A stretch of 64,000 nucleotides of DNA from Asterella californica (taxonomy: Eukaryota; Streptophyta; Marchantiopsida; Marchantiales; Aytoniaceae), in contig JAYKYS010000002.1 in NCBI GenBank assembly GCA_036924285.1, positions 2,604,001 to 2,668,000 of the forward strand, written 5' to 3'. The translations under genes and the position numbers were made by a program. Position 1 is the stretch's first letter. Every line of letters starts with the position of its first letter. The notes beneath the pieces are model-generated. The model did no database searches, had not been told where the DNA came from, and worked only from the letters and a program-made list of their open reading frames with translations. Shown piece after piece: positions 4,311 through 59,712 of this stretch.

Positions 4311-4318
4311 AAGTCTTG

Positions 4319-13399: not shown

Positions 13400-15711
13400 T
13401 GTCGCGTTGTGAGACGTCTCACATGTGAATTCAATACAAAACGTGTGTTGTGTTTTCTTTTGTGTTCTGTGAACCTTTCATGTAACTCGCATGAAAGCGT
13501 ATTAGGTGTCATGTTCACAGAGATCTGGATGTGAGATCGCACGATAACAAGATGTGCCGACTCAGTGATCCATGAACATTCGCGTGAATGACTCTTGTTG
13601 TCAAACATAGGTATAAGATAGTGGGTCGAGGGTTCATGAGACATTCTTCTTTGGGTGGATTTCATGAGTGTGTCTTAGTGTCTTACGTGATAAGCGAGAA
13701 ACTGCAAGAGTTGTATGTATGAATGGAGGACTGAATCGAGTTCCGAATCTTTCATTTTCGAATTCGTTTCATATTAAGTTTCACTACATCCACCGCGTTC
13801 ACTTTTGACAGTGGTTCGTCGTCTACTTTGGAGAAGAGTTCATGGGGAGGATGATGGACTCGCCTATTTCGGTGATCTTACCAATTGTCACGTACGAGGA
13901 GAACTGGGACTTGACAGTGTATATCTTACTTTGACGAAGGGGGTGAATGGACCTGAACTTTCCAGCCAACATCTCTTTCAACGTCTGAGTGGATACTCGA
14001 TGTCACTGTCGACGGACAATCAGTCATCGTGCGTGAATCGTAAAGAACTTTGGCGAGGAGTACTGTAATCAAGTGATGGCTTCTCCATTCTCTTTTGTAG
14101 TACTTTTCATCGTAGATCCGTTCAAAGTCGTCATCTTGTATTGAATCTTAAGTGTTAAGTATGATCTATAAGGTTATAGTTCGACGAGAGTGATTACTTT
14201 AAGGTTGAGACCGATGCCTTGAGGCCGTGAGAGGGTATTAGGGTTATAGTTTGTTCTAGGGTACCAAGTAGGAGGAAAAGTGGTTTTCAGATCTCTTTTC
14301 TTATTGGTCTACTCTCGACCAATCAACTCTATTCAAGATCTACAAACAGCTTTAGGGTTTTGGAGGTCTTCTCGGAGGTCATTTGAAGAGTGAGTGGTCT
14401 TGTTGGAAAGCACTCGAGTCGGGCTACAGTCTGGAGGCAAAGATCAGCCGATTTGATGTTCTTAGGAGAGAGTGATGGACATTCAAAGTCAGAGGGTCAA
14501 ATCGATACCTCGAGTGACATTTTCGAGTGATCCGAGAGTTTGAGAGGTGATCTTTAGGAGCTGTCAAGGGGATCAAGTAGTTCACTCCGTGATGGTTACG
14601 TTGATGTAACACAATCCTACATTTGGGTTGGATTTGCTCTCGAAATGGTCGACTGAAGTTGGCTATTACAGTTGAGAGATATGAGTAAATCAGTTTTCTT
14701 TGGGTTCAAAGTTTGAGTTGCTCCGTGCACATGGGATTGGATATCTGAATGAAACTTTCCAGGATGAGAGTGTGCTCTATCAGCTAGTCACATGTGAAAT
14801 TTCAGCTCATTTGGGTAAGAGAATGTGTAGAGATCTAGGATTCTAGTCATCGAGATCTATAAAGCTCATAGGTTAGCACAGGCGGGTGGCTTGATCCATT
14901 GCGGACAGTTGGTTTGAGATCTGAGGTTGAAATTTCATACAGTAGTAGAGAAGGGTCAGAGGGGGTTTCTTGTGAAGTTTGAGCTCAATTGGATGATCGA
15001 GGTGGGAGCACGAGGTTGTCAAAGTTCAGTTTACAGCGTGACGAGAAAGACAAAGAGAGATTTCGCCTAAATCTCTTGGTTGGTCTTGGACAAAACGACT
15101 TGAAGATTGGAGGTGGGCTTCTTGGAGATGCTGCAAGGATTAAGAGGAAGCTGTATTGTGAGATTGGCATGGCGACCATGATCAGCGAAGGTGCCACGTC
15201 TTGCTGAAGTCACCGATTAGAAATCCTCAACTACGAGGTACCGTTATCTTCAATGTCACGCTCCGGGCTCTCTGGTTGTTTACTGCTCAAATGCCTTGTA
15301 TCGTTGAGAAGCTTGTATAATAGACTGTCCTTTGCTGTGGATATCTTCCTAAACGAAGCTCGTATCAGCGAACAGTAAAATGCCAGAGTCTAGCATTTAG
15401 ATAGTTTGTCGAGAAGAAGTAGTGAAGCGGATATTACCGAAAGATTGTATGAAAAGCGCTTGGGATCTAAAGCAGAGATGTACCGTGTATGAGCCATGCT
15501 TCTACTTAGAATAAGATTGAGCTCCAAGTCGATTGTGCGATGCACATGTGTTGCACTTGGATCAGGTTAGATCGATAGTAACCAAGACAAAAGACTGATA
15601 GATTAGTTAGTGAGAGCCTAAGTTTTCATCAGTTAGGTCCTAGGTCCTGTTGTATCTCTCCACAGCCAGATACCTCATGTATTCTCAGACCACATTTCAC
15701 GCCCTACGACA
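13400..15711 (+). repeat. Element A 3' LTR
   Basis: The 2,312-bp LTR starts TGTCGCG directly after the purine tract AAGGGGTGGA and ends CCTACGACA before the target duplication TCGG. The same purine-tract/TGTCG junction is present in elements B (47749) and C (57155). Its reverse complement forms the left end of the element. No protein-coding content was seen. Confidence 0.85.
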
Positions 15712-15997
15712 TCGGTCCGCTCAGACTCACTTCTTAGACTTACGTCTCAAACTTATCTTCCGATTCTGTTTTGAGACTTGCCCCCTTAAGTTATCATTCG
15801 TCTGGGTTCTCTTGGGATATGTCCTTACGTCTTAACCCAATATTTCAACTTTGGTTTGGAGAATCACTTAGTGTTCATCTGTTCTCAACTTCTCGATCAA
15901 GCCGTTCAGTCCTAGTCGCAACGTTCATAATCCAGCACAAGTCCCTAAGATTTTATTATTCGCATTTGCGCTCGATCTTGAGATTGAGAGTCATGAC
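15712..15997 (+). repeat. Repeat R1, copy a, right piece
   Basis: This continues the R1 homology interrupted by element A. It aligns with 25868-26153, for example TTATCATTCGTCTGGG and TTCTCGATCAAGCCGTT in both. It ends near GAGATTGAGAGTCATGACA, matching GAGATTGAGAGTCGTGACA in copy b. The first four bases are the TCGG target duplication. Confidence 0.75.
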
Positions 15998-16726
15998 ATT
16001 CACCTCTACTTTGGAGGTTGTTGTCTTCAACAATGATCTTTAAGTTAACAACAAGTTCAAAATATGTAGTCATCCTTTGGTGCCAAAATTACGTTCCGAT
16101 AGCGAATCCATAAGTCTCTTCTTGGATTGAGTCTTAAGTTGTCGCTAGAACACTTAGAAAATTCCAACTAGTCTCGAGGACGCCTAACCTCTTTCACCAC
16201 CACTAAACAAAACTAGTTGTCGATTTCTGAACATTCTACTTAAGACTTTAACTTGCTAACTTACAAGTATCCACATTTATTTACTAGGTTTCTTGAAGCT
16301 CACTTTCTGATCTCATCCTGATTTGACTTAGACGTGCGACTAAGTTTATCTTGCAGTTAGAAAACTGCAATGTAAGATCACCTCAAGCCCCAAGACAAGT
16401 GTAAACCATTCACACTCGCTTTGCCAATGCTAAGGCAAACCTAAGTCTTGATTTAGATGCTTATCCAAACCAACTTGCTTCCTTTGAGTGTGTTTCTTTC
16501 CTCCTCTTGATAACATCCTAAGCATCTGATCAGAACTAGTCATAGCCATGCACTACTAATACACCTAGACAATTTCTGAAAAACAAATTTTTTTATTTTC
16601 ATAAAATACAAGTCAAAGCTCCAAAATCCATCGGCTCAAATTGCCTCAAGTTGCTACTCGTACGATTCGTTGTTCCTTCACTACTCGCTGGAAAGAGATG
16701 TCCTCATCTTGCTAACGTCCTTGCTG
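15998..16726. other. Non-coding, possible 3' LTR remnant of chromovirus
   Basis: No coding sequence is recognisable. The stretch lies directly downstream (in minus-strand sense) of the chromodomain stop codon, where the 3' untranslated region and 3' LTR of the minus-strand chromovirus would be expected. A matching 5' LTR could not be found to the right, so LTR status is not demonstrated. Confidence 0.3.
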
Positions 16727-23159: not shown

Positions 23160-25046
23160 TTGACAATTCTAAATATAGTAAGATCGAACATGCTATCTTA
23201 AGGGTGGCAGTTTTTCCGTGTAATATTAGTTAGGACACCATGTGGTAGCATAGGTAGCGTAGGAGGGACAAGGTGGATAGCCAATTCGGGCAGGGGAACC
23301 GCTTGCATGTGAGGTGACAACCTCCTGTCAGCGCCTCTCTCTCCCTGGTGGTCGTCTCCCCTGGTTCTCATGGCAGCGACATAAGTAAGATCGCAGAGTA
23401 GGAGATAGAGTTCTGCCAGTTCTGTAGAATTCTGTAGCTACTGCACATACACATCGATTCTATGGTGCAGGCAGACGAGACACATTAGAGCAGAGACACA
23501 GGATAGATAGTTCTTCGCACTACACCCGTTGTTGGAAACATACGAATAGTCTTGGAATACACAGGAGGGGTCTGCATACTCTTACCAGCAATGGTTCGAA
23601 GATGTAGATAGAAGTAGTAGACAGTCTAGGAACAGGGAACGGCATCCTTGTGCAGTCCTGTTAGCTAGATTGGTGTGTCGAGGAGTAGACGCAGGAAGTA
23701 GAGGGAGTGAGCTTCCCAATGCCATTGTGACTTCTTCTCGGGGAATAGATTGTGGATTTGAGTGCAGAAACTTTGCTCATGTCTTTTGGATGGTGGGTTC
23801 CTTGAATTCGCTCCCAATTGTACATGGGAAGTGTTCTTCTTGAGTGGCGGTGACTGTTAACAGTTGTGGAAGTGTAGCTTGGCTCGTTTAGTAGAGCACT
23901 TGGGATCTACGTACGAACGGTCTTATGGGTAAGGGATCCCAGAAGACAGAGCAGTCAGAGCAGCGAAGTGAAGAAGAAAGAAGCCTTCTTCTCACAGCAG
24001 AAGACGACATCCTCGAGTAGAAGACGGTGCAACAGTACTCACGTTTGTTGTCTTCCTCCCCAAACTATTACAAGCAGGAATGACTTGTTAGTCAGGATCC
24101 GGACTAGAAGCCTGTCGGAATCTTAATTTACTCTTTTCATCTTGTTTTCTCTTGTTTGGATTTTCTTATCTTCCCCATCTTCTCCCATCTTCCTCATCTT
24201 CTTACCTTCTTCTAGTGAGCTTCCGAGACTTCTATTGAGCTTCCGTGAAGGTGAATGTCGTTGTAGTGCTGCAGGAAGACCACTTCCGTAGACAGAAGCT
24301 TGGGAAGGCTACAGGGGACATACACCCTGTGATTAATCTAACCCGTTGGAATGTGAGTGTGAGAAGAAGATGTAACGACCGTTGCTAGTCGACTTCTGCG
24401 AAGCAGGACAGCCTTCTGGAGGTGTGAGAAGACGAGCTGAACCCCCAGAAGACGAGAATCGCTTCGAGAAGACGGTATCGAGAAGACCGGAAGAAGCAAC
24501 CTGGAAGCAAGAAGATCGTCTTCCCGAGCTTCTCTGTGGATAATTGTGTGATATTTTAGTTGGTAGTTGTTTGTTTAGTTCCAGAGCACCATGCGGCGTG
24601 TCTGGAAGACGTGTGATTTTGTGTGGTTTTGTGAGAAGACGGAATTTTTAGACAAAATCCGTGTGTTTGTGTGTTTGAACAGATCCTAGAACTTAGAGCA
24701 GCGATTACTTACGTAAATCCTATGTGGGAACGATATCTTGTATACTAAATGGGCAAAAGGAGTAATCCTGCGTCACTACAGTTCCCTGGGGTGTTTATCG
24801 TCCTCTGATTGTAGCTCAGAATTAGCTTGAGTCGATCTAATCCTCATGTCAGCCGTCACTCGTTTCTTGGACTTCCCCTTGGAACTCTATCTCACTTTAG
24901 TCATTGCTCCAAGCGTTCACTTAGAAAGTTGATTCACTTTGTATCTCGCGTCCTTTCTCAAGCGTCCAGCCTTCAACTGATATCTACAGTTCTCGTTCAT
25001 TGAAACGTTGACTCTGATATCACTTTTCGTGCACCTACTGCCTTGT
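23160..25046. other. Non-coding right flank of GAAGAC-rich element and spacer
   Basis: No ORF of interest was seen. GAAGAC/GTCTTC motifs continue to about 24640. From there to R1 copy b at 25047 the sequence has normal composition and no recognised feature. Confidence 0.45.
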
Positions 25047-26153
25047 TGAGCAAGCAGAGGCTCTTGCTCAGTAGGTCACGAAACTCACAACGCTTACTTA
25101 CGAATCATAATCACATGTTAGCGTTCATGCACCACTCACATTTATCTCATTTGATCCGGACCGTCTCGCTAACTTTCGAGCTCAACATTCCCTAAATCTC
25201 GACCTAGATCCGGCTAGATCGGTCCTAAAACATGAGCTGGGACTTCTTATAAAATCCAAGGTCTTAAACGATACCTCCAACACACCTAGCAGTCCAATCG
25301 CTCGTGATGTCTGTCTGGATCCAAGCTCCCAAATGGTGATTAAACCTATCGTCTCGTTCTTTAGTCTTGTCCCATTCCTTGGATTGTTCTCAAGTCTAGA
25401 CGTCCATGTCTAGAACAGAATGCACTTTGGTACTATTCCAACCATCACCTCATGCTCCTAGAGTTCTTCCGTCAAACTTGGGGTCAGATGACTCGTCTTG
25501 GTCCACCCAGACATCGAGTCCTTCTCATATATATTTCTGGAGATCGGTGGCTCCTTCCTCTTCTTTGGTCCTTGAAAATTATACCCGATCACAAGGTGAG
25601 TCGTAATTCTCAGCTCTGATGTCACTTCAAAGAGTTCTTGGTATCATTGGAGAGCTCTCGCCGAGTCTTTCCAATGATACTTTATGCCTCGATGATGGTA
25701 CCTCGAGATCTTACATGGAACTCCGCCCACGATATAAAATGTCATTGGAGCTCCAACACCTAGCATTTTTCTGAGGAACCGTAGTCTAGCGTCAGACTGG
25801 GACCTCATGGTTTGGACCAGCGTCCGATCAGCATCCGTTTGCATCGGACCCACATCTCGGTCCTCTCGGCTCCACATCTCAGACCCACGTCCCAGCCTTC
25901 GTTTCTGACTTACATTTCGGTCCATTTTCAGACTCGTCTCCTTAAGTTATCATTCGTCTGGGGTCTCCTTGGGATCCTTTATGTTCTATATTCAATGTTT
26001 CAACTTTGGTTAGGAGAACCACTTAGGGTTCAATTGTTCTCAATTTCTCGATCAAGCCGTTAAATCATACTCGTAACTTTCACATACTAACGCAAGTTCC
26101 TAAAGTTCTGTTGTTCGTGTCTGCGTCCGATCTTGAGATTGAGAGTCGTGACA
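25047..26153 (+). repeat. Repeat R1, copy b (uninterrupted)
   Basis: This 1.1-kb non-coding repeat matches 4319-5132 plus 15712-15997. It preserves the empty target site of element A near 25858-25868 (ATCTCGGTCC). Both R1 copies have the same orientation, about 9 kb apart once element A is subtracted, which is compatible with LTRs of one old element or two solo LTRs. The short ORFs within it (e.g. 25812-26063) are not conserved between copies. Confidence 0.7.
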
Positions 26154-26439
26154 CTGGCACCACTACTCTTCGCACTGGAGTCGGTCTTGTTTGTCCTCTT
26201 GTTACAGAATGCAATTGCGAATGACACCGGATCATCAAGTGGTGCTACAAAGTGACTGATTAACGTCTCCTTAACACGCACGAGTTAAATATCATTAAGT
26301 ATTGCGTCGCGAGCACCAAAGAAGACTGTCACAACCCAGCAAGTTTGAAGCCGATGACATGGTATGCTGAGTCAGTTTGACATCGATGACATGACATTGA
26401 TTGAGTTTGAGTTAGTGACACACGCTCGACTCAGTTCGG

Positions 26440-26935
26440 AACTGGGACCACAGGTTACTACTGAAATACGAATTCGAGAGAGCAACCAGAGACGGGGAGA
26501 TTTGTTTTGAACGAGGTCTTTTGTTGCGAGAAGGAGAATTTTGTAGGTATTTCCTAGAAGTCATTTCGGTTCTATGGAAATCTTTTGAGAGAGCGAGAGG
26601 GTCCATGCTTAGAGCCACAGGACTGTGGAAATCTTTCAAGAGGCATTTCCTACAAGGCATTTCCTAGCCACAAGACTGCAGAAATCGAGACGAGAGAGCG
26701 AGCGAGCATCATGCATGTGGTTCTGCAGAAATCCACAGAGAGAGCGAAAGAAGCCACAGACTGTGGTAATCTTTCGAGAGAGCAAGAGGACCTGTGCTTA
26801 GAGTCACAAGATTGCAGAAATCTTTCAAGAGAGCGAGAGGGCCCGTGCCATAGCCACATGACTGCAGAAATCTTTCGAGAGAGCAATCGAGCCTGTGCTA
26901 GAGCCACAAGACTGCAGAAATCTAAAGGGTGTGTT
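26440..26935 (+). repeat. Satellite array in left MULE terminus
   Basis: Imperfect units of about 50-60 bp carry GACTGCAGAAATCTTTC followed by GAGAGAGCGAGAG and GCCAC. The reverse complement of this unit makes up the larger array at 31860-33310. The ORFs that span it are repeat artefacts. Confidence 0.75.
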
Positions 26936-31859: not shown

Positions 31860-33310
31860 CCAGCCCTCTCGCTCCTTCACAATGAATGAGCAGGAGCAAG
31901 AACGAAAAGAGCGCTCTCGCTCGCTGAACGTATGCACGATTTCACGATTTCTAACTTCAAAAGCTCCACGCTCGCTGAACGCATGCACCGTCAAACACTC
32001 TTGTAGAACCTCAAGCACTCTCGCTCGCATGCAACATGCTCGCTCGTTCGAACGAAAAATTTCCGCAATCTTGTGGCTCTAGCACGGGCCCTCTCGCTCT
32101 CTTGAAAGATTTCCACAGAATCGTCAAGCACTCTCGCTCTCTCGAACGATTTTCACAGAACCGTCAAGCACTCTCGTTCGTATGCACGATGCTCGCTTGC
32201 TCTCTCGAAAGATTTCCGTAGTCTTGTGACTATGGCACGAGCCCTCTCGCTCTCTCCAACGATTTTCGTAGAACCGTCAAGCACTCTCGCTGGCATGCAC
32301 GATGCTCGCTCGCTCGCTCGAATGATAGATTTTCATAGTCCTGTGACTATGACACGAGACCTCTCGCTCTCTCGAACGAGGAATCTTAAATGAAACTGAC
32401 GCAGAATCAAAGTGATGTTGTCCTGTGGCTCTAGCACGAGCTCTCTCGCTCTCTCAAACAATTTTCACAGAACCATCAAGCACTCTCGCTCGCTCGCTTG
32501 AACGACAGATTTCTACAGTCCTCCTATGGCTATGGCACGAGTCCTCTCCTTTGCTCGCTCGCTCGAACGACAGATTTCTGCAGTCCTGTGGCTCAAGCAA
32601 GAGCTCTCTCAAACGATTTCCGCAGAACCGTCAAGCACTCTCGCTCGCTCGCTCGAACGACAGATTTCTGCAGTCCTCCTGTGACTATGGCACGAGCCCT
32701 CTCCCGCGCTCGCATGCTCGATGCTCGTTCGCTCTCTCAAAAGATTTCTGCAGTCCTGTGGCTATGACACGAGTCCTCTCGCTCTCTCGAACGATTTCCG
32801 CAGGAACCCTAAACCAAAATGCGTTGTCTTGTCGCCCTCTCGTCCTCTCGCTCTCTCGAATGATTTTCTGCACACCGTCAAGCATTCATGGAACGATTTC
32901 TGCAGAACTACATGCACGATGCTCGCTTGCTCTCTCGAAAGATTTCTGCAGTCATGTGGTTATGGCATGAGCCCTCTCGCTCTCTCGAATGATTTTCGCA
33001 TCGTCAAGCACTCTAGCTCGCATGCACGATGCTCGTTCGCTCTCTCGAAAGATTTCTGCAGTCATGTGGCTATGACACGAGTCCTCTCGCTCTCTCGAAT
33101 GATTTTCTGCACACCGTCAAGCACTCATGGAACGATTTCCGCAAAGCTGCATGCACGATGCTCGTTCGCTCTCTCGAAAGATTTCCGCAGTCATGTGGCT
33201 ATGGCACGAGCCCTCTCGCTCTGTCGAAAGATTTCCGCAGGAACCATAAACCAAAGTGACATGAACTCTCGTCCTCTCGTCCTCTCGCTCTCTCTCTCGA
33301 ACGGACGGTA
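31860..33310 (-). repeat. Satellite array in right MULE terminus
   Basis: About 1.4 kb of head-to-tail variant units alternate a GAAAGATTTCYGCAGTC..GTGGCTATGGCACGAG type with a GATTTTCACAGAACCGTCAAGCACTC type. They are separated by CTCGCTCTCTC tracts. The array is the inverted counterpart of 26440-26935 and about three times longer. All ORFs across it are repeat artefacts. Confidence 0.85.
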
Positions 33311-38046: not shown

Positions 38047-38117
38047 TATGCTCAATTTACAGTCGCGGCAATCATTGGCAATCATCAATGATTGCCACTA
38101 CAGTAAATTGAGCATAT
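38047..38117. repeat. 70-bp hairpin downstream of LBD gene
   Basis: TATGCTCAATTTAC pairs with GTAAATTGAGCATA. An inner stem GGCAATCATTG pairs with CAATGATTGCC around a short loop, with 3-4 unpaired bases between the stems. It may be a small MITE, or a folded 3' UTR element of the LBD transcript. Confidence 0.8.
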
Positions 38118-41863: not shown

Positions 41864-44236
41864 ATGGCCAACCAAGGATCATCAAGTGGAGGTGCTGCTG
41901 CTGCTCAGCAACCTATTCAGTTTGATGCTGCTACGATGAAGATGTTCCTGGCTTTTTCCATGTTCATGTAGCAGCAGCAGAGCAAAGAGAGGAAGGAGGT
42001 GTTAGCAACCAAGGCGTTGCAATCTGTGGTGCACTAGATGGACCAGTTCAAAGGTACAGATATTTCCAAATATGTGCGATACTATGCTAGGGAGATGGAG
42101 GTGAACAAGGTACCTGAGAAGGAGATGGTGGAGAACTTTGAGCTTGCTGTTGTCCCTGAGATTCGTGGACGTGTGAAAGAGCTCAAGCAGCAGCAAGGAC
42201 AGAGTTGGGAGAGCTTTATGCGAGCTTTGAAAGAGGAGTACTACACTGAAGATTCAGAGAGGGTGACCAAGAGAACATTCTTGGAGTGGGTGGTTAAGCC
42301 TAACAAAGGTTTGTCTGTAAATGAGTTGTTAAGGGAGTTTGATCGTCAGTATGCTCAGCTTTCTAGGACAGAGAAGCTTACACTAGAGGTGGAGAAGACC
42401 GAGCTTTTCCTACAAGCAGCGGACGTGACTATTCAGGAGAAGCTTGAGCTGTTGCTGGAAGACAAGAGTGAGGAGAGAGGATTGAAGCCTGACTGGAAGG
42501 AGGTTGAAGAGACTGTCTCTTTGCTGACCAAGAGACAAAGAAGAAGGGACAAGGTGGTGGTAAGTGAAGCAGCACCTCTGATAATTCCTGTCAAGCAGTT
42601 GCCTACTAAACCCACTTTGGTAATTACTAGAGAGGAAGACTCATCGCTTGATGAGTTGATTAAGGGTATGAAGGAGCTTAAGCTTAAGCTCACTAGGTTA
42701 GAAGAGAAGGAGCAGAATGTACAGCCTGCTATGTAGAGACCTCAGATGAGAGAAGGCTTTGTTCATCGTTGTATATGGTGTGATAGCTTAGACCATGTAA
42801 GAAGAGATTGTGGAGAGTTTTCAGATGCATTGAGGAAGGATCTGATCTTCTTCAAAGATGGTAAGATCCATCTAAGAGAGACTGGGATGATGTTGGGAAC
42901 CAACTTTGGCAAGGGTGGTATGAAGAGACTTGTGAATGAGATATCAGCATCACATGCTGTTTCTCTTGTGAATGCTGCTACCTGTGGAGTGAAAGTGGAG
43001 ATGGAGAGAGAGAAAGAGACTACTGGGTTGTGGTCAAATGTAGTGCGGTCCGTAGCTAGAACAGAGCTAGACAAGGATGTGCTACGAAGGGTTGTCAACT
43101 CAATTAGAGAAACTACAGGATGGAATGACCCTGTGGATACTATGTCAGTGCATGCTTATGTTGCAAGAAGTCATCATGAAGCTGTACTAGAAGAAAAACG
43201 CAGGAGAGAGGATGCAGGTGAGACTTCTACAGCCAAACGACCTGCTACAAGAAGTGAAATGGCTAGACCAGAGGCAAGGCAGGAGACAACACCTACTCGG
43301 GAGGAAACTATGGAGGATCTACCACCTACAACACCAAAGGAGAAGGAGAGAAGCAAGGAGAAGGGTAAGATGCCTGCATACAAACTTCAGTCTGACATTG
43401 AGATTGCTACAGACCTGAAGCAGGTGTTAGAGAATCGTATCTTGAATGGGAAGGTTGAGTTTACCTTGGGTGAGATTCTTGGGATTGCAAAGCGTGAGTT
43501 CCATGAAGTTATCATAGATATCATCAAGAGGAAACGTCAGATTTTGGGTGAAGCAGCTACGCTTAACGCTCTAGGGACCAAACTGTCGGAAGATGAGGAA
43601 GATGAGATTGCTGGTTATTGCTCTCAAGCATCAGAGGGAAGATCAGATCAGCACGTGAGGTTTGAAGATGAGGTGGAAGCATCACAGAAGAGCCATTACT
43701 CTCACAACCATTGGGCAAGAGCAACCACAGAGACCTTAGTGAAGTTGGGAGATCTGGAGGAACCTGTGGTGGCATTGATTGATCACGGCTCAGAGATTAA
43801 TCTGATGTCTAAGGAGCTGTACAAGCGTGGGAGGTGGCCTATAGACACCGACCATGGATGGCTTATCCGTGCTGTCAACAACCAGAGGGGAGAACTCTAT
43901 GGTGCTTGTCCCAACATCAAGATAACTGTGGGTGACATCAGTGATGTTCAGAATTTCTTTGTGCAAGACATGTCAACGTATCCTATCATTCTAGGGCAAC
44001 TTTACATTACTGCTGTTAGAATGGAGACACGAGTTATGGATGATGGTTCAGCTTATGCTAGGATACGTAGTAGAGACGGCAAAAGAGCTGTTCAGTTTTT
44101 GACCGTTGCTGCAGAACATGAGAGGAATCGTGATAGCTTGAGAGACCGTCCACTACCTAAGATTACTCAGGAGTTTAGAGAGTCTAGGGGTTTTGGCAGA
44201 GTATCATTGAAGAGCGAGACTTCAACGGTACAGTAA
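41864..44236 (+). pseudogene. Element B Gag-Pro polyprotein
   Basis: A single frame of 790 codons is interrupted by TAG at 41969, 42035 and 42734, and ends TAA 44234. Capsid-like residues (about 60-260) include FELAVVPEIRGRVKEL. The CCHC knuckle CIWCDSLDHVRRDC lies just after the third TAG (about 42773). A long linker rich in charged residues follows. The retropepsin-like domain near 43750-44110 carries VVALIDHGSEINLMS (D-H-G instead of D-S/T-G), ILGQLYIT and a basic tail. The three TAGs could be single C-to-T changes at CAG. No other defect was seen. Confidence 0.82.
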
Positions 44237-44251
44237 AGCTAGGATTCTCGC
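44188..44251 (+). promoter_or_regulatory. Putative -1 ribosomal frameshift signal (element B)
   Basis: Heptamer GGGTTTT (44188-44194) is phased G GGT TTT in the protease frame, right after the last -1-frame stop (TAG 44185-44187). Stem 1 pairs 44207-44212 with 44220-44225 (TTGAAG/CTTCAA). It extends outward to 44201-44205/44227-44231 across one mismatch, which gives a 6-nt spacer. Stem 2 pairs 44214-44219 with 44246-44251 (GCGAGA/TCTCGC). This makes an H-type pseudoknot around the zero-frame stop at 44234. Confidence 0.75.
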
Positions 44252-49115: not shown

Positions 49116-49538
49116 ACGTTGTAGTACTGTGTTTTGTGTAATTGTTAACTGTATCTTCGTGAGAACGATCCTTTTTTTACTATTTCCGATACTTTGGGTT
49201 TCTCTGAGTTGTTACATATAGAAACATTAAAACTTTTGGCGCCGCTGCCGGGGATACAGATTTAACTTTTACTTGAATTCAGTAAGTTGTAACCGTCGAC
49301 ATGTATGTCGGAGGGAGCACGAGCGACTTCTGAAGAAGATCAGAAGACGAGAAGGACAAGACGACCGCTGAAAGAAGATTGGTTCGGGAACAACTGTTGG
49401 AAGAAGTTCAACGCTAGAAGGAGGCAACGAAGGAGCGAAGACGTCAAGCGGCTCAAAAGTGGCAGGAAGTGTAAAATCTCTCTGAAGGAACTTCATCTTC
49501 GCTTGGAAGGAGTTCAGTACCTATTTCACCGCAAACGC
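49116..49538 (+). mobile_element. Gypsy element D: 5' LTR end, tRNA-Asp PBS, start of gag
   Basis: The end of a truncated LTR (to about 49236) is followed by a tRNA-Asp-type primer-binding site. An ORF from about 49305 encodes a very basic, charged protein (TRRTRRPLKEDW...RRRQRRSEDVKRL). It is cut by the insertion of element C at 49539 and continues after 58485. Once C is removed, including one ACGC copy, the two halves join without a gap. Confidence 0.7.
49237..49254 (+). promoter_or_regulatory. Primer-binding site, tRNA-Asp type
   Basis: TGGCGCCGCTGCCGGGGA is complementary to the 3' end of plant tRNA-Asp, a primer used by many plant gypsy elements. One base differs from the usual TGGCGCCGTTGCCGGGGA. 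Confidence 0.8.
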
Positions 49539-50865
49539 TGTCGTGATGTGAATCATTTTACAGTGTAAATAATTCATCTCTCTGTCAAGCGTTAGTCTCT
49601 CTGAGTGAAATTAGGACCTCAGAGAAGTCGACACTGGAGGCTGTTATATATTTTTTGAGTCTTAGTAGGTTGATTACCATGTAGATGGAGTTAAGCTCAT
49701 GGGTTGTAATTACGTGTCGCCCATGCATGCTTCCTAGCGAGGTTAGGTTATCTTTCGGGATTACGTGTCGTTTTACATGTCTTCGCATGTAGTTTAGGGT
49801 CTATGTTGGCACTTTAAGGGCTCGACGTGGTAGCCTATGTACAAAATGAAGTCACCACGTGGTTTGGGACACAAAAGGACAGGGGAGTGAAGCTATGAAC
49901 TCCCATTGGTCCAATTTTGTCTTTGTGTACTGCTAAACTTAGTAGTAGGGGTCTTAAGAGGAGTTCAAGCATTTGGAGAGAGGACTTCGAAATCTGAGGG
50001 CACAGGGAGATAGGGTTCGTCGTGCCAAGCACTGTCAGCGAACTTTTTGATCGATTTGGAGCAATAAAGAAGGAGTTATGGCTGATTGAAGTTCGATTTG
50101 TGCCAGAATTGCAGCACTTCTGTTGATTTTGGAGTTTTCGGTGTCAATCGCAGTAGATTTGAGAAAATCGCTTCAAACCTTCGAGGTCTCGTTCATTGGC
50201 AGCAGGGCTACGACTGTCCCCAAATTTTCATGTCAATTGAGTCTGTGAGTAATTCGGGGCGACCGCTGAAGCAGAGGGGGTCCGAAAAGCTCTCAATCTG
50301 GAACAGCAACTTCAGAGAGCGAGATCTGGAGTTCTGTGTACAATCAGGAGGCCCAACTTCACAGGAGTGTTCAGCAAGCTGTGTACTGCAAATCCTGTAA
50401 GAATCTTTGAAAGTGATCGAGCCAATTCTCTGTTCTAGGTCGAAATAGCTGTCTGGGTACCAGAAATTGCCGTAATTTCTCTGCTCAGAACATTTATGTC
50501 CATATCTCGACACTCTGATTTGATCTCAAGCTGAAACTTCGTGTGTATGGTCAGTAGGGCCTCATTTACATGTAGGAGGAGTTCTGAAGTCTGAACCATC
50601 GTATGTTTCTGATTCTGGACCGTTAAAGTTCGCTGTTTGACCTTATTACTGCTAGTCTGATCTGATTTTCACTTCCTGAACATACTGGAGGGTCAATTCG
50701 ACCTGAGTGAGTGTTTATACTGTTCCCTTTTTATCTGAAGCCTACCTCTGTAGTAAGCAACCATAGCCTGAAGTCCAACACTTCTCTGAGTAGATTGAAC
50801 ACAGCCTTCAAGACCTATCACAGCCAGAAGGTTCCGCCCTTCCCAGGAAAACTCTCAACTCGACA
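49539..50865 (+). repeat. Element C 5' LTR
   Basis: It starts TGTCGTGATGTG, ends CTCAACTCGACA, and is 1,327 bp long, the same as the 3' copy. The ORFs inside are non-coding matches conserved only because the LTRs are young. Confidence 0.92.
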
Positions 50866-50867
50866 TC

Positions 50868-50895
50868 TGGTGCTTCCACTGAGAGTTGAACTCAG
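50868..50895 (+). promoter_or_regulatory. Primer-binding site, probable tRNA-Thr type, extended
   Basis: It begins two bases after the LTR. TGGTGCTTCCACTGAGAG is followed by bases that keep matching a tRNA. The reverse complement reads as CCA, a discriminator, a 7-nt acceptor strand (TGGAAGC) and a complete T arm with 5-bp stem CTGAG/CTCAG and loop TTCAACT. Plant tRNA-Thr genes start GCTTCCA as I recall, which would fit. The match covers about 28 nt where 18 is usual. Confidence 0.7.
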
Positions 50896-50938
50896 GGGTG
50901 ATTGATTGAGAAGGTTGAGTTCACTGCAAGAAGAAGAG

Positions 50939-52126
50939 ATGGATCGCGAGAGTGCTGCTGCTGCTACTTCTACGCCTGCTGCATCTACGTCTACTGCAGC
51001 TCCTTCTTTAGCACCAGCGGCTACAGCGACATCTGCATCTGGTCTAGATACGGCTGAGATTCTGAAGACACTTGCGGCCCTGGTCCAACAACATCCGATC
51101 ATTGGAGGGGGTGAGTTGAAGTCTACCAAGGCTTTGCAAGCAATTGTGAATAGATGCGGTAGATTTGAAGGTAGAGATATTTCTAGATATCTGCGTGAAT
51201 ACAGAGGAGAGATGGAACTAGTTAGAGTTACTGATGCTGAGATGATAGGGAGTTTCGAGTTAGCTGTAATCCCTGAGTTGCGGGACCGGGTTAGGGATGT
51301 ACAGAGAAGAAATCTAGGTGTCTGGATGAGTTTCGAACGATCTCTTCGAGAGGAGTTTCTCGAAGAAGATTCAGAGAGAGTCACTAGAAGAACGTTTTTG
51401 GACTGGGTTGAGCAGCAACCTGGTCGTATGATGAACCTGAATGAGATGCTGAGAGAGTTTGATCGGAGATACCGACAACTCTCAACTCTTGAGAGGATAA
51501 CCTTAGATGCTAGGAAAATCGAGCTTTTCCTGCAAGCTACCGATGATGCTACGGCAGATCGGTTATGCTTTATGTTGGCTGACCGATCGGCTGAAGGAGG
51601 AGTTACTACTGATTGGGGGAGAGTTGAGGATGCTGTTGCTGTATTGACGAGACAAAGACGTGGAAGAGTGGCTGTGGGAGGACGTCCGCTTGTAGAAGTT
51701 ACCGCTCAACCTCGCACTGCTCCTCAAGTACAGCAACCTCCGGCTCCTGCTCCCAGACCTGTTGTACCGGCTGCAGTATCTTTGATACCAGTGGTGCCAG
51801 TTCCTGCACAAAGGGCACCGGTTCAGAGACCTGCAGAGAACCATGGACAGCAGAACCAGATCGAAGATCTGATTCGGCAGATGAGAGAACTGAAGGTGGA
51901 GCTAGCTGGATTGCAGAGAGAGCAGCCGCCGGCGCCTGCTGCTGCACGTCCAGGAGGTGCTCCTGTTCGTAGATGTATCTGGTGTGACAGTCAAAATCAT
52001 TTCCGAGGGGACTGTCAAGAGCTCATGGCTGCTCTGCGAGATGGTGTGGTTCGCTACCAGAACGGTAGGCTACATCTTTCTTCTACTGGAGAGCCGTTAA
52101 GCACGCAGTTGGACGAGGAGCCATGA
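50939..52126 (+). CDS. Element C Gag
   Basis: The 395-residue product has an Ala/Ser/Thr-rich N-terminus and a capsid-like region (about residues 55-260, FELAVIPELRDRVRDV) alignable with A and B. A Pro/Val/Gln-rich linker follows, then a CCHC knuckle (CIWCDSQNHFRGDC at about residue 345) and a short tail. The stop TGA overlaps the ATG of the next ORF (ATGA at 52123-52126). In A and B this region is continuous with the protease frame, so the break here is probably a 1- or 2-nt deletion. Confidence 0.8.
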   Translation: MDRESAAAATSTPAASTSTAAPSLAPAATATSASGLDTAEILKTLAALVQQHPIIGGGELKSTKALQAIVNRCGRFEGRDISRYLREYRGEMELVRVTDAEMIGSFELAVIPELRDRVRDVQRRNLGVWMSFERSLREEFLEEDSERVTRRTFLDWVEQQPGRMMNLNEMLREFDRRYRQLSTLERITLDARKIELFLQATDDATADRLCFMLADRSAEGGVTTDWGRVEDAVAVLTRQRRGRVAVGGRPLVEVTAQPRTAPQVQQPPAPAPRPVVPAAVSLIPVVPVPAQRAPVQRPAENHGQQNQIEDLIRQMRELKVELAGLQREQPPAPAAARPGGAPVRRCIWCDSQNHFRGDCQELMAALRDGVVRYQNGRLHLSSTGEPLSTQLDEEP

Positions 52127-53474
52127 GGAGTCTACCTCAGATTACAGCTGCTGCAACTGTACATGCATTGATGGCACCACCGGTAAATCCTGATGTATAT
52201 GCCGGTCACATTGAAGTTTCTTCTAATCCTACGTTGCTAGATAGGACTACTGAGAAGAAACTTGTTCAAGTTCCTTCTGAAGTACTGAAGAGAGGAGTAG
52301 AAACTATCCGTAGGGTCACAGGGTGGGGAGATCCTGTTGATGCTGCGTCTATCAAAGCATTCTTGGACGTGGATAGACACGTTCACTGGCAGGATGCTTC
52401 TGTGGAGGAGAAGAGGCGGCGAGAAGCCTCTGAACTTGATACTGGAGTTTCAGAGGAGACTGGAGATAGACGGAGAGTCACAAGGAGGCGAGCAGCCCCT
52501 CCAGAAGACGTCCCATCTACTTCTGCAGCTCCTCCACCTGCACCAGGTCCGATGGAGGACGTGCAGAGATCCCAGCAGGAGCCAACGATTGCTGGTAGAC
52601 GGTTTACTGCCCAAGAGAAGGGGAAGGGACCGGCTTACAAGTTGGCAGCTGATATTGAGACTTCAACTGATCTCAAGAGCATCCTGGAGCAGAGAATACA
52701 ATCGAGTTTTCTCTTCGGGAGGTTCTTGGTATTGCGAAGAGGGAGTTTCACGAGCTGATCATCGACATCATCAAGCGGAAGAGACAGGTGATGTCCGAGC
52801 AAGTAGAAAGTCAGATGATTGATGTGATAGGAGCTTCTATGAATGATGCAGAGTTCGGCAAGGTGCATTTTCAGGAGGCTGATGACACAGAGTATCAGCA
52901 AGAAGCGTTGGTTGCTGGTACCAATACTGCTGAATTTGATGATGATGAAGCTGGCGATGAGAGTCCAGCTGCTGATAGTGACTTCAGGAAGAGACACTGG
53001 GCTCGTGCTACGACGGCTACACGAGTTCGTCTCGGAAGTCTTGAATCTGTTGCTGCGTTAGTTGATCACGGTTCAGAGATCAACATCATGTCACGAGAAG
53101 TGTACGAGAGAGGACAGTGGTCTATCGAACTGAACCATGGTTGGGTGCTACGAGCTGCAAACAACCGGAAGGGTGAGTTATACGGCGCTTGTCCCAACGT
53201 AAGAGTGAAGCTGGATGATGTGGAGGTAGATCAGCACTTCTTCGTGCAGTCTTTTGCTTCTTATCCTGTGATTCTTGGTCAGCCTTATATTACTGCAGTT
53301 CGAATGGAGACCAAGGTAATGGACGATGGATCTCATTATGCTAGGATCCGTAGTCCAGATGATAAACGTTCTGTTCAGTTTCTGACCGTTCGTACGAACC
53401 ACGAACGAAATAGACAAACTTTGAGAGATTCTCCTATCTGTAGGAGTAAGGGTTTTCTGAAACCACTCTTGTAG
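52123..53474 (+). pseudogene. Element C protease region, frameshifted
   Basis: The first frame (52123-52758) covers the charged linker. An about 10-nt deletion near 52700, relative to B, moves the reading to the frame used by 52788-53474. The protease carries AALVDHGSEINIMS and VILGQPYIT and ends TAG 53472. Element A has an indel patch at the homologous place. The retropepsin triad is D-H-G, as in A and B. Confidence 0.8.
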
Positions 53475-53518
53475 GTCGGGATACCAAGAGTGATGGATCT
53501 GCTACTACTATGATCCCG
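53450..53518 (+). promoter_or_regulatory. Putative -1 ribosomal frameshift signal (element C)
   Basis: Heptamer GGGTTTT (53450-53456) is phased G GGT TTT in the protease frame, directly after the last -1-frame stop (TAA 53447-53449). After a 7-nt spacer, stem 1 pairs 53464-53471 with 53485-53492 (CACTCTTG/CAAGAGTG). Stem 2 pairs 53477-53482 with 53513-53518 (CGGGAT/ATCCCG). The third loop is 20 nt. The zero-frame stop TAG (53472) lies in the first loop. All pairs are Watson-Crick. Confidence 0.8.
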
Positions 53519-56500
53519 CTTGAGCAGCCTGTGGGATCACAGCAGGCTGACGAAGAGGTTGCTCAAGATTCTGAGAACAACTACACTGTACATAGTTGGA
53601 AATCTGGTTTGATGACTTTTAGTTCTGATGATTGGAGTGAGTTCACGCAAGTAGAAGATCTGACTGAGAAGAGTAGAAGACAGATGGAGAAATATGCAGA
53701 AAATCTGCGTTGTACAGGAGTTTTGAATGAAGGTGAGATGATTTCTGGTGTTTACGAGGAGTTCGTAGGTGTACAGTCTTTTGTTCGATGGCTGGATGAT
53801 GTAGATAGGTTGATGGAGCAGATGGGAGGAAGGGTGGTGATCCCTATCCACTCTCGTAAGGTCTATGAGGAGATTGTCTCGTGCTTGCAATCTCGTCCTC
53901 ATCCGAGACTGGAGAGTGGATGGAAGGATGCAATCTGCTGGTGTGGCTCTCGTGAAGAAGCAGAGGTTCACACCAAATACAAAACTGTAGCGAAGAAGGT
54001 GAAACCAGTGGCAACCCAGTTATCTGTTGATTCACGACAGCAGATGGAGTTAGCGGCCACTGAGCTTGTACTGAGAGATCCTAAACAGATAGGACACGAG
54101 TTTACTCAAGAGACACTCGAGCAGCTCCAGATAGGAGGGGGTGGCTTCTTGACTGAAGTGGAGAAACGAGCTTTTGAGCAGATGATAGTTAGCCATGGTA
54201 AGGCATTTTCTTTCTCAGCTGGAGAGATTGGTTGTGTGGATCCTAGTGTGATAGCTCCGATGGTTATCTTCACTGTTCCTCACGTACCTTGGGACTTGAA
54301 GCCGATTCCAGTCCCTCGTGCCTTGCTACCGAATGTTATTGACTTACTGAAGGAGAGGATGCGGATGGGTATTCTTGAACCATCTATGGCTCCGTACTCT
54401 AGCCGATGATTCACAGTACCTAAGAAGACAAGAGCTTTACGCTTCATCCAAGACTTGCAGCCTGCCAACAACATCACGATACGAAATGTTGGAACAGGAC
54501 CTGTGGTTGATGAAGTAGCCGAGGCATTTGCTGGAAGATCTATCTATTCTATTGGAGATCTGTTTTCAGGTTACGATCAGTTTCAGCTTGCTTTGGAGAG
54601 TAGAGACTTGACTACCATGCGTACACCTTTGGGGTTGATGCGGATGTGTACTCTTCCTCAGGGTGCGACAAACTCAGTAGCTCATATGCAAAACGCGATG
54701 CATAAGGTGTTACGAGAGTTTGTACCTGAGGTTACCATCCCATTTCTTGATGATATACCCATGAAAGGCTGTCCGGTGGAAGATAAGGACGAAACTATGA
54801 CTGCTGATGGTTGCAGAAAGTTTATTGCAGACCACATCCGAGATGTGGAGAAGATTCTGATGCGCTTGGAAGAGGTACACCTCACTTTGTCAGGTACCAA
54901 ATCTCGTTTTGGAATGTCAGAGATTGTGGTGGTTGGTCACTTATGCAGTACTTTTGGAAGACGGCCGAACCAGAGAAGGTAGATGCTATAGCAAGGATAG
55001 CAGACTGTACCAATATCACTGAGGTTCGCCGATTCTTAGGAGCTTGTGTGTTCTTTCGTGTGAGTATTCCTCATTATGCACACATTGCCGAGCCTCTGTA
55101 TGCACTCTTGAGGAAGGGAAAGAGGTTTACTTGGCGGCGAGAACATCACGAGACGATGGAGCAGCTGAAGGAGATTCTGAAGTCTCCACCTGTACTAAGG
55201 AGACTTAGCTACGAGAGCGGAAGACCTATCATACTGACTGTTGACACGAGTCCAAAGGCGATTGGATGGGCAGTCGGTCAAGAAGATGCAAAGGGCATGC
55301 GGTTTGTTTCTAGGTTTGGAGCTCGGATCTTAACAGATAGACAACGTAACTATCCTCAAGTGAAGCGTGAGTTGTGGGGAGCTGTTACTGCTATGAAGGT
55401 AGACCGAGAATTCTTGATAGGTGCACGTGTGGTACTAGAAACAGACTGTTTGCCTTTGCTAGGTATGATAGCAAACTGTAATACTCCAGACATAGCAATG
55501 CTACGATGGATTGCTTATATCCGGAGTATGAACCCTGAGCTGAAGCATATAGCAGGAAAGGATAATCCTGTTGCAGACATGTTATCTAGGGCTTGTTATA
55601 CAGATGAGGAAGAGATGATTGCAGAAGTCGAAGATGAAGAGAAGAGAGACGTTTGGTGCCAAGTTGGTCAGCAGACTTCAGACTTGGAACCACTGCCGTT
55701 CTACGAGGAGTTCTACACGAAAAAGTTCCGCGATATCGGATACTATCTGAGTTTATTATGCAGAAGAGAAGGATGGAGTGATGCAGAGTTCAAGGAGCTC
55801 AGAAGAAAAGCGTACGGTTACCTTCTACGTGAAGGTTATCTGTGGAAACGTCCGAAGAGAAGAGATGGGATGTTGGCTAGAGTAGTGGATGATCAACCGA
55901 CGAAGCTGAATCTGCTGAAGGAGTTTCATGACACATTGTGGGCTGGACACCGTGGAGTTTGGGCTACGTATACGAAGATGAAGGAGCGATACTGGTGGAA
56001 GGGTTTGTATCAAGACGTAGTGGATTTTGTTGGGTCGTGTCTGCACTGCCAGTTCTACTCTAAAGTCTGTTACAGAGATGGACTTGTACCTACCTACCCA
56101 CCTAGTATTCATTTTTCGTGGGTCCTTGATCTTGTGATGATGCCGCCGGGACTATGGGGGATGCGTTACTTGGTGTTGGCTCGAGAAGATCTCTCCAACT
56201 ACGTGGAGGGGCGAGCACTACGAACGAAGACTACAGAGAACATATGTAGATTCGTGCTGGAAGATATTATCTGTCGTTACGGATCTGTTGGAAGATTACG
56301 AGCAGATAGGGGTGAGCTGAGAGGTGCAGAAGCGAAGGAGTTCTTTGCTCGTTATGAAGTAAAGCTTCGACTTACTACTGCCATGAATCCAGAAGAAATT
56401 GGTAAGAGTGAGCGAGGACATCCTTCCGTTGTTCACGCTTTAGTGAAAGCGTGTGATGGTAGGCCTAGAGAATGGCCGAGACTACTTCCATTTGCTTTAT

Positions 56501-57108
56501 GGGCTGATAGAACTACACACTGTACCACGACTGGCTATATGCCAGTTGAGCTTATGTTGAGACAGAAACCGATCATGCCTGCTGAGGAGGACTTCCCTAC
56601 GTGGGCTACGCTACCGTGGGAAGATGGTATAGATCATACTTCACTCCTTGCTTTACGAACTAGGCAGTTGGAGCGAAGGGAAGAGGATCTTGCTGAGGCG
56701 CAAGAGAAGCTGAAGGTGGCTCGAGTCAGAAACAAAGAGCGTTTCGACAAGACACACCGACTACGATCAAAGCCAATACGTGTTGGTGATTGAGTTCTGG
56801 TGTATGATAGCACGCTGGAGAACCAGCATTCTACACTTCGTAAGTTCTCGCGAAGATGGTTCGGGCCTTATGTTGTGTTAGATGTATACGAGAATGCCAC
56901 TTATAGTTTACGAGAGCTAGATGGTACTCCTTTGAAACTATCTGTGGCTGGCAAACGAGTGAAGTTGTTCAAACAACGTGGAGGATCAGTAGATTTGTTC
57001 AACTTTCTGGAGTCTGAGCAAAGGATAACAAGAGATGACGACGTCTCCACTACTGAAGAGGTTGAGGCGGAGGAGAGTGATGACGATGATGTACAAACAG
57101 AAGACTGA
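53457..57108 (+). pseudogene. Element C Pol (RT-RNaseH-IN)
   Basis: The RT frame opens at 53450 and runs to TGA 54407 (Trp in B), then on to about 54962, where a 1-nt loss shifts the frame. RT has GDLFSGYDQFQLA and IPFLDDIP. RNase H (about 55228-55590) has LTVDTSPKAIGW, KRELWG, LETDCL and ADMLSR, all acidic residues present. Integrase has FHDTLWAGHRG...CLHC, then VLDLV, RADRGE and KSERGH. TGA 56791 replaces the Trp of GDWVLVYD. The GPY/F module (WFGPYVVLDVYE) and an acidic tail end at 57108. Both stops are G-to-A changes at TGG. Confidence 0.85.
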
Positions 57109-57154
57109 AGAGGTTGGCACATGCCGGAGGATGTGCAGGTTTGGAGGGGGTGGA

Positions 57155-58481
57155 TGTCGTGATGTGAATCATTTTACAGTGTAAATAATTCTCCTCTCTG
57201 TCAAGCGTTAGTCTCTCTGAGTGAAATTAGGACCTCAGAGAAGTCGACACTGGAGGCTGTTATATATTTTTTGAGTCTTAGTAGGTTGATTACCATGTAG
57301 ATGGAGTTAAGCTCATGGGTTGTAATTACGTGTCGCCCATGCATGCTTCCTAGCGAGGTTAGGTTATCTTTCGGGATTACGTGTCGTTTTACATGTCTTC
57401 GCATGTAGTTTAGGGTCTATGTTGGCACTTTAAGGGCTCGACGTGGTAGCCTATGTACAAAATGAAGTCACCACGTAGTTTGGGACACAAAAGGACAGGG
57501 GAGTGAAGCTATGAACTCCCATTGGTCCAATTTTGTCTTTGTGTACTACTAAACTTAGTAGTAGGGGTCTTAAGAGGAGTTCGAGCATTTGGAGAGGGGA
57601 CTTCGAAATCTGAGGGCACAGGGAGATAGGGTTCGTCGTGCTAAGCACTGTCAGCGAAATTTTTGATCGATTTGGAGCAATAAAGAAGGAGTTATGGCTG
57701 ATTGAAGTTCGATTTGTGCCAGAATTGCAGCACTTCTGTTGATTTTGGGGTTTTCGGTGTCAATCGCAGTAGATTTGAGAAAATTGCTTCAAACCTTCAA
57801 GGTCTCGTTCATTGGCAGCAGGGCTACGACTGTCCCCAAATTTTCATGTCAATTGAGTTTGTGAGTAATTCGGGGCGACCTCTGAAGCAGAGGGGGTCCG
57901 AAAAACTCTCAATCTGGAACAGCAACTTCAGAGAGCGAGATCTGGAGTTCTGTGTACAACCAGGAGGCCCAACTTCACAGGAGTGTTCAGCAAGCTGTGT
58001 ACTGCAAATCCTGTAAGAAGCTTTGAAAGTGATCGAGCCAATTCTCTGTTCTAGGTCGAAATAGCTGTCTGGGTACCAGAAATTGCCATAATTTCTCTGC
58101 TCAGAACATTTCTGCCCATATCCCGACACTCTGATTTGATCTCAAGCTGAAACTTCGTGTGTATGGTCAGTAGGGCCTCATTTACATGTAGGAGGAGTTC
58201 TGAAGTCTGAACCATCGTATGTTTCTGATTCTGGACCGTTAAAGTTCACTGTTTGATCTTATTACTGCTAGTCTGATCTGATTTTCACTTCCTGAATATA
58301 CTGGAGGGTCAATTCGACCTGAGTGAGTGTTTATACTGTTCCCTTTTTATCTGAAGCCTACCTCTGTAGTAAGCAACCATAGCCTGAAGTCCAACACTTC
58401 CTTGAGTAGATTGAACACAGCCTTCAAGACCTATCACAGCCAGAAGGTTCCGCCCTTCCCAGGAAAACTCTCAACTCGACA
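57155..58481 (+). repeat. Element C 3' LTR
   Basis: The LTR starts TGTCGTGATGTG after the purine tract GGAGGGGGTGGA and ends CTCAACTCGACA. It is about 98% identical by eye to 49539-50865. Confidence 0.92.
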
Positions 58482-59712
58482 ACGCGTTACGAGAAAGACG
58501 AGCGCACGTACTGGAAAAAGAAGGGGGACATCGAATCTTCATACTCGAGCGTACGGAGTGGAGAGAGTTCACCTAAAGACGCATCATGGTTACCATTTCC
58601 TTCAAGGACCACAAGTTTACATGAATCTCTGTTTGAATCAGCGAGAAAAGACGAGGATATCCGAGCTGAAGATGAAGAGACAGATAGAGAAGAATCACCT
58701 TCGCTTCGAAGAGTGGAGTTGTTTCAATCTTCATCTTCATCTTCATCTTCAAGTTCAGCGCAGTCAGAATCTAACATTTTGACAACTCTTGCGGAAGATC
58801 CAAATTAGAAAGTGGAAGCGGCCTTTGAACTGATCGTCAAACATGGGCCAAAGATCACAAATTTTGTAGAACTCTTGAAGAAACAAAGAGGACAAGAATT
58901 AATTCGAGAATTATTACCATTGGGATCACCTGCCCTTCGAATCCCAAATCTTAGACCTCAGGGTACTCCAGGAGTATCGCTCTTTAAGATACGAAGTCAA
59001 GAGGCTCCTACCTCGTCTTCACCCAAGAATGAACATGACATAAGACGAGAAAATATTCATTCAGTTGAAGACACCTCGGCCGAAGTAACTTTACCCGAAG
59101 TAAACCTCTCGAATATCAGAGTGAGAACCGCAGTTGTGAATGCTCTTGCCAAGTTGACTCTTCGACCATTAAGCAATTTGTCGAGTGCAGGATCAGTGGG
59201 GATTTCAAACTTGACGGTACCAACAAAATAGAGTCGGGGACAGCAGTCAGCAGTTCCACCTTCTACACTACCGCATACAATGACAGGAGTACCATTTCCG
59301 TCAGGGGCGTCACCTTTCACTGGCCAGAATTATCCAAAATTTGATGGGGAAGATTCTGACAGTGATGGAGATGGAGAGAGTGCCGACTCCTTTGTCAAAC
59401 AATTTGAAGCGATATCTCACGCAAACAAAAAAGACAATGACCCTGATCGGACGAGGATTTTTCCCAGTTTGTTGAAACACGCAGCCTGAAAATGGTACAG
59501 TCATGCCAATTTAACTCCAGCAATTATCTCTACCTGGGATTTAATGAAGAACGAATTCCTCAAGAGATTCAGAGAATTGAACTATAACAGGCATGTACTG
59601 CACAAAGTAAACAGTGTTAAACGAAAGAGGAAAGAATCTTTGAAGAGTTATGTCCAGAGATATTATGGAATCTTGGATAGGCTACCTGCCAACGGAACAC
59701 ATCCAAGTAATA
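58482..59712 (+). mobile_element. Gypsy element D, continuation (gag)
   Basis: After the ACGC duplication the basic ORF of element D continues. At 58812-59231 it is preceded by a stop, and at 59280-59489 the reading has SPFTGQNYPKFDGEDSDSDG and EAISHANKKD. At 59544-59705 it has EFLKRFRELNY...KRKESLKSYVQRYYGILDRLP, which resembles a retrotransposon gag (capsid) domain. TAG/TGA stops separate the pieces. The plus-strand homology ends abruptly near 59712, where minus-strand element E begins. Confidence 0.7.

Follow-up and report, generated by a model that had tools for sequence, protein, structure and literature searches.

The window analyzed here is a 64,000-nucleotide stretch of the liverwort Asterella californica (contig JAYKYS010000002.1, positions 2,604,001 to 2,668,000), and our subject is a candidate programmed −1 ribosomal frameshift signal in a long terminal repeat (LTR) retrotransposon, element C, and in its relatives, elements B and A. 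Element C spans 49539-58481, with all its coding features on the forward strand. Its 5′ LTR (49539-50865), with the ends TGTCG...CGACA, is 98.1% identical across 1327 bp to its 3′ LTR (57155-58481), and the flanks, read by eye, carry the target-site duplication ACGC at 49535-49538 on the left and 58482-58485 on the right. Between the LTRs lie a Gag open reading frame (ORF) with the CCHC knuckle RCIWCDSQNHFRGDC (50906-52126), broken here and sharing one frame with the protease (Pro) in other copies; the Pro-containing end of Gag-Pro, VDHGSEIN ... LGQPYITA (52671-53474, an ORF of 268 codons with its 0-frame stop at 53472-53474); the start of Pol in the −1 frame, comprising a linker and the N-terminal part of the reverse transcriptase (RT) (53450-54409), recognized by its ORF, codon diversity and protein matches between lineages; and the remaining RT, RNase H and integrase (54410-56793), in pieces in this copy and recognized with Pfam. 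RVT_1, RT_RNaseH, RT_RNaseH_2 and Integrase_H2C2 scored above the Pfam cut-off. The order Gag, Pro, RT, RNase H, integrase flanked by LTRs is that of a Ty3/gypsy element, with rve, the integrase core, scoring below the cut-off. The Gag and Pro pieces gave no Pfam match, and were identified by the CCHC and VDHGSEIN...LGQPYIT motifs together with their relatives. No Pfam chromodomain was found in the scanned pol pieces of B and C, the scan of C covering all but its last 104 codons. The best Pol match among the proteins listed came from the liverwort Riccia sorocarpa (75%). Immediately internal to the 5′ LTR, TGGTGCTTCCACTGAGAGTTGAACTC at 50868-50893 resembles a primer binding site, whose complementarity to a tRNA would reach into the T arm.

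The ORFs at 52671-53474 and from 53450 onward bear out the sequence-only reading, made before this analysis, that RT lies in the −1 frame relative to Pro. Its coordinates for the signal, the phase of the heptamer, the 7-nt gap, the 8- and 6-bp stems and the 20-nt loop were all exact. The slippery heptamer, G GGT TTT in the Pro frame (53450-53456), is followed by the spacer (53457-53463) and by an H-type pseudoknot. Stem 1 forms 8 Watson-Crick pairs between CACTCTTG (53464-53471) and CAAGAGTG (53485-53492), stem 2 forms 6 Watson-Crick pairs between CGGGAT (53477-53482) and ATCCCG (53513-53518), and the fold leaves 53493-53512 as the third loop. Among the heptamer types searched, this is the only slippery one in phase in the 268-codon Pro ORF, and none was found in phase in the 320 codons that follow it.

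To compare copies, we used the 40 best-scoring of 3267 (C) and 1881 (B) first-look candidates in the 516.7-Mb assembly, numbers that also suggest that both families are very numerous in one genome. Counts at the slip site refer to 39 other C copies and 39 other B copies, the window copy not being counted, while the comparisons of private breaks, of the single Gag-Pro frame and of the first AUG used 29 other copies per family. Alignment of genomic copies had been set beforehand as the check that could refute the proposal: the phase was unchanged in 39/39 C and 39/39 B copies, GGGTTTT was intact in 36/39 and 38/39, and both stems in 37 and 38, respectively. The three remaining C copies carry GGATTTT. 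All stem 1 pairs are formed in 39/39 C copies and all stem 2 pairs in 37/39 (accepting G-U pairs), and the 0-frame stop lies 7 codons past the heptamer in every one. Variable columns in C are fewer in the stems (4/28) than in the loops and spacer (16/34; Fisher P=0.007). The heptamer had also been placed directly after the last −1-frame stop; this is so in the window copy, where TAA occupies 53447-53449, and in 19/39 others, but in the other 20 the position reads CAA.

Element B carries the same heptamer, G GGT TTT, at 44188-44194 of the forward strand, again in −1 phase to Pol. Its stem 1 (44201-44212 with 44220-44231) forms 11 of 12 pairs, with one fixed mismatch, and its stem 2 (44214-44219 with 44246-44251) forms six. 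Among the other B copies, the single departure from GGGTTTT is GAGTTTT; the 11 pairs of stem 1 are formed in 38/39 and the six of stem 2 in 39/39, with the 0-frame stop 15 codons on in 39/39. The stem letters of B are unlike those of C and the architecture is alike, with a spacer of 6 nt in B, 7 nt in C and 4 to 9 nt across lineages. Within the window, A and B share 64.8-70.9% DNA identity with C in matching coding pieces. In the ORF at 42737-44236, residues 143-268 match Pfam DUF4100 (PF13352, unknown function) with 26.7 bits, the cut-off being 27.9; since the match lies between the CCHC knuckle and Pro, DUF4100 is probably a retrotransposon Gag-Pro segment.

Element A, a decayed element of which one copy was examined, shows G GAT TTT at the same place (9834-9840, forward strand), and its Pro and RT ORFs are again in −1 relation, with stops breaking the −1 frame near the site. 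Its pseudoknot (9845-9903) consists of stem 1 (9845-9856 with 9868-9879, one mismatch) and stem 2 (9860-9867 with 9896-9903). Around its coding region, where direct LTRs would be expected, lie 2.3-kb inverted repeats (5252-7543 and 13412-15709, 92.4% identical). Outside the repeats, the flanks at 4315-5133 and 15720-16010 correspond to neighbouring segments of 25042-26167, as though a 10.6-kb unit bearing inverted ends had landed within a sequence of that kind.

A scan of prokaryote assemblies, in which 43 stretches fit a pattern, yielded eight plant-like contigs (L061-L068) in cyanobacterial metagenome-assembled genomes (MAGs); seven came from a Trichormus MAG, one from a Synechococcales MAG. 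Such contigs are probable contamination, from which plant DNA can usefully be drawn. Since Trichormus azollae is found living inside the fern Azolla, the seven Trichormus MAG contigs are probably fern DNA. We examined seven junctions, leaving out L068, and found Pol in the −1 frame in five of them (L061, L062, L064, L065 and L066), with stem letters that differ again from those of A, B and C. In L062, L064, L065 and L066 the heptamer is G GAT TTT and the codon right after it is the 0-frame stop; in L061 it is G GAT TTC, and the stop follows five codons later. In L062 both frames are unbroken (Gag-Pro of 725 codons and Pol of 1172 codons, stop to stop) and overlap only at 2449-2461, which leaves GGATTTT, inside this overlap, as the place for a −1 shift. 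No in-phase slippery heptamer was found in the other two of the seven junctions, L063 and L067. A scan of viral contigs gave 5 pattern matches and no relative.

The pseudoknot search was run with our own thresholds (spacer of 4-13, at least 6 pairs in stem 1 and at least 5 in stem 2) and two controls, 1000 dinucleotide shuffles per lineage and the same search slid along the whole element. On C, the top fold was exactly the one described above, and 5/1000 shuffles equalled or bettered it. Shuffles as good numbered 0 for A, L063, L065 and L066, 2 for L061 and for L062, and 3 for B. Sliding the search gave 10/5562 positions as good in B and 10/5460 in L066, every one at the site, and 16/5600 in L062, where, of the twelve listed, five lie around 2000 and the other seven shortly precede the site. 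Folds computed without pseudoknots hold stem 1 in 6/9 lineages, as judged by eye. We prefer the shuffles as fold evidence over an arm-swap permutation, whose result (0/100000 for each stem) arises partly by construction, the arms having been chosen as each lineage's best pairing; for each stem, a lineage's own 3′ arm was the best partner in 5/9 lineages.

One could argue that a random mutation in a decayed copy changed the frame, and that heptamer and stems coincide with it by accident. Element C does have several other frame breaks that are private to it, and 59/5794 positions along C equal or beat the fold energy of the site. For C the case is thus decided by the comparison of copies and lineages and not by fold energy alone. 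Three other frame changes of C, in gag, pro and pol, are absent from the 29 other copies wherever the alignment reaches, except for L018, in which large deletions peculiar to that copy cover two of the three places. Unlike these private breaks, the −1 step at 53450 is common to 29/29 other C copies. The −1 phase also recurs in every B copy compared, in element A and in 5/7 MAG contigs, with the pairing preserved in different letters. We ruled out a private mutation, since other copies have the same phase and signal, and chance as a whole is extremely unlikely. Element C is a dead, decayed copy that carries the signal of its family. Gag-Pro is a single frame, stop-free over the stretch seen, in 15/29 other C copies and 21/29 other B copies (L011 and L055 having a shorter reach) and is broken in the rest. 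With Gag and Pro in one frame across copies, there is only one programmed-looking shift, from Gag-Pro to Pol. The earlier proposal that Pro-Pol is made by −1 frameshifting hence stands as to the phase, heptamer and stems, which are kept in the copies, and has to be amended to a single shift after a Gag and a Pro that share their frame.

Coding conservation was measured as diversity by codon position in 29 other copies of each family (27 for B Pro, with L040 and L042 dropped). For positions 1, 2 and 3, the values in C were 0.026, 0.018 and 0.125 in the Pro frame and 0.021, 0.031 and 0.059 in the −1 frame over RT, and those in B were 0.013, 0.010 and 0.056 in the Pro frame and 0.013, 0.010 and 0.069 in the −1 frame over RT. 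The peak is at codon position 3 of the Pro frame before the site, and of the −1 frame over RT. Past the site, 36/39 C copies and 38/39 B copies have no stop in the −1 frame for 150 codons. When C, B, L061, L062, L065 and L066 were compared in the three forward frames, all 12 matches downstream of the slip site with E<=0.01 paired the −1 frame with the −1 frame, and five of them begin at residue 1. Both frames are coding, the downstream one from the slip site on.

An Ogre-like intron between Gag-Pro and Pol, spliced from some transcripts, would offer another way to join the two, and some Physcomitrium and Riccia gene models do span Pro to Pol, perhaps via predicted introns. However, the ORFs overlap without a gap, the −1 frame is open as just described, and its protein is conserved from residue 1. 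We rejected such an intron on the overlap of the ORFs and this conservation, and hold it to be exceedingly improbable. Pol translation might also begin anew past the Gag-Pro stop, through termination and re-initiation or at an internal start codon. In favour of this, the first −1-frame AUG lies 20 codons past the site in 29/29 other C copies, and 6, 8, 8, 19 and 48 codons past it in L064, L065, L066, L062 and L061, respectively. In B, by contrast, it lies 156 codons on in 28/29 other copies (202 in one), the −1 frame being nonetheless conserved from the slip site onward, and the in-phase heptamer and pseudoknot would be left unexplained. Re-initiation was rejected because B has no −1-frame AUG for 156 codons, and we consider it very unlikely. 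Finally, the frames could be joined by a +1 or −2 shift, or by RNA polymerase or reverse transcriptase slipping on a run of T. T runs of 4 to 6 are present, and Pol is in the +1 frame in L063, which has a six-T run, and in L067. Against this, B and C have only four T, the phase, spacing and pseudoknot suit tandem −1 slippage, and the two +1 contigs may be single-copy indels; we regard these ways of joining the frames as hardly credible.

At the protein level, the best 120 of 248 Pro relatives were listed; 114 were recognized by motif and 96 reach beyond the conserved motif. The length limits of this search exclude fused Pro-RT proteins, so their absence from it is not evidence. Of these 96, 74 end at F or at most 12 residues from the homologous DF/GF (the 78 given by the script minus P0166, P0173 and P0233, with an unrelated F, and the ambiguous P0180), and they include proteins from Physcomitrium patens, Riccia fluitans, the fern Adiantum nelumboides and metagenomes. 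Regarding Pol, the best 120 of 349 relatives were listed, and 340 proteins in hand were checked for Pro and RT together. Both were found in 27 of them, 26 Riccia sorocarpa gene models (between P0257 and P0338) and the metagenome protein P0336.

Taken together, we put at roughly nine in ten the probability that a programmed −1 frameshift signal controls how much Gag-Pro is made relative to Gag-Pro-Pol in a Phygy-like, non-chromodomain clade of Ty3/gypsy elements. A ribosome translating Gag-Pro would arrive at G GGT TTT (or G GAT TTT) and be stalled by the H-type pseudoknot 4-9 nt downstream, both tRNAs would re-pair one base back in a tandem −1 slippage, and RT, RNase H and integrase would then be translated in the −1 frame. 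Without a slip, termination would follow 0 to 15 codons later. The anatomy, the phase, the stem pairing over copies and lineages and the coding conservation of both frames are directly observed. From these we infer slippage itself, its rate and its role in particle assembly.

Several observations weigh against this interpretation. GGATTTT is not a strict X XXY YYZ heptamer. Of the 59 positions of C that fold as well, already mentioned, the best twelve listed, 53490-53504, belong to a different fold just downstream of the site, and the fold of C without pseudoknots places the 3′ arm of stem 2 in a competing hairpin. Stem 1 is absent from the non-pseudoknot folds of L062, L064 and L065, the pseudoknots are weak in L064 (48/1000 shuffles as good) and L067 (27/1000), and Pol is in +1 in L063 and L067. 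The 40 best-scoring copies of each family are close kin and not independent, and in B the variable columns of stems (2/36) and loops (4/21) do not differ significantly (P=0.18). The linkers show little codon-position bias (0.041, 0.039 and 0.056 in C; 0.025, 0.015 and 0.028 in B). Besides, P0336 has Pro and RT in one frame and the 26 Riccia sorocarpa models fuse them, the slip-site peptide being apparently missing from these models. They may owe this to predicted introns or be true one-frame elements, and fused Pro-RT proteins count against the universality of the split arrangement. That the 26 may be one-frame elements lowers the odds of the wider reading. We still find it rather likely that a liverwort, moss and fern clade of Ty3/gypsy elements has long used an alpharetrovirus-style −1 switch, its H-type pseudoknot changing in sequence but not in fold, and that it is the first such case in plant LTR retrotransposons within the literature searched.

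Elsewhere in the window we noted a degenerate repeat block with an inverted relative (32005-33253 and 26567-26923) and two palindromic, self-complementary stretches (2140-2515 and 38047-38116).

There is only a partial answer to how plant LTR retrotransposons make Gag in excess of Pol. A −1 signal with a pseudoknot, placed between protease and RT, is a directly testable mechanism, and it comes with many natural variants for structure-function work. If the proposal is true, plant ribosomes have long met host-encoded −1 signals, and the signal may explain split genes, and perhaps false introns, at the Pro-RT junction in such genomes. The layout is shared with alpharetroviruses, animal retroviruses to which we claim no relationship, in which Gag and Pro occupy one frame and Pol follows the protease in −1, after a slippery heptamer and a pseudoknot.

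In print, as far as the accessible text of the sources goes, the excess of plant Gag over Pol is attributed to splicing (EVADE, Ogre), to separate RNA pools (BARE) and, in general terms, to frameshifting, which PMC12786077 mentions along with splicing. Plant elements with split frames were already known in 2003, with pol in +1, according to the available part of a review (PMC5009743). The word 'frame' is absent from the portion of PMC7466625 at hand, and 'frameshift' from that of PMC12885004. Within the titles and abstract openings of the open-licence literature, we found no earlier description of a plant LTR retrotransposon with a −1 pseudoknot signal. That many plant Ty3/gypsy elements use one ORF, as the sequence-only reading stated, agrees with the accessible part of PMC6317226, in which most plant groups have one and some have two. 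The same text describes the Phygy clade, which is likewise short and non-chromoviral, with an insertion preference for NCGN; the ACGC duplication of element C fits it, in one element only. Phygy is presented there as specific to P. patens, a moss in which we also found Pro relatives, and that part of the source reports no frameshift signal for it. Ogre, a plant Ty3/gypsy element, joins its ORFs by intron splicing (PMC6317226, in the same portion), whereas the frames of C and B overlap with a putative recoding site. Animal LTR elements with pol in −1, and PEG10, likewise use a −1 shift at a heptanucleotide, PEG10 with a pseudoknot; in the available section of PMC5009743 these shifts were surveyed between gag and pol, and not in plants.

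The closest parallel in heptamers comes from plant viruses. In the part of PMC4737148 at hand, RNA2 of pea enation mosaic virus (PEMV; GGAUUUU), barley yellow dwarf virus (GGGUUUU) and red clover necrotic mosaic virus use the same two heptamers as these elements, likewise with a 0-frame stop at or near the slip site and a structure about 5 nt downstream. When GGAUUUU was replaced with GGGUUUU in a plant virus RNA, frameshifting reached 112% of the wild type, according to the same portion, so both heptamers are functional in a plant virus RNA. PEMV, as described there, differs in using a large bulged stem-loop with long-distance pairing to express a viral RNA-dependent RNA polymerase, whereas the elements have a compact H-type pseudoknot and a retrotransposon Pol.
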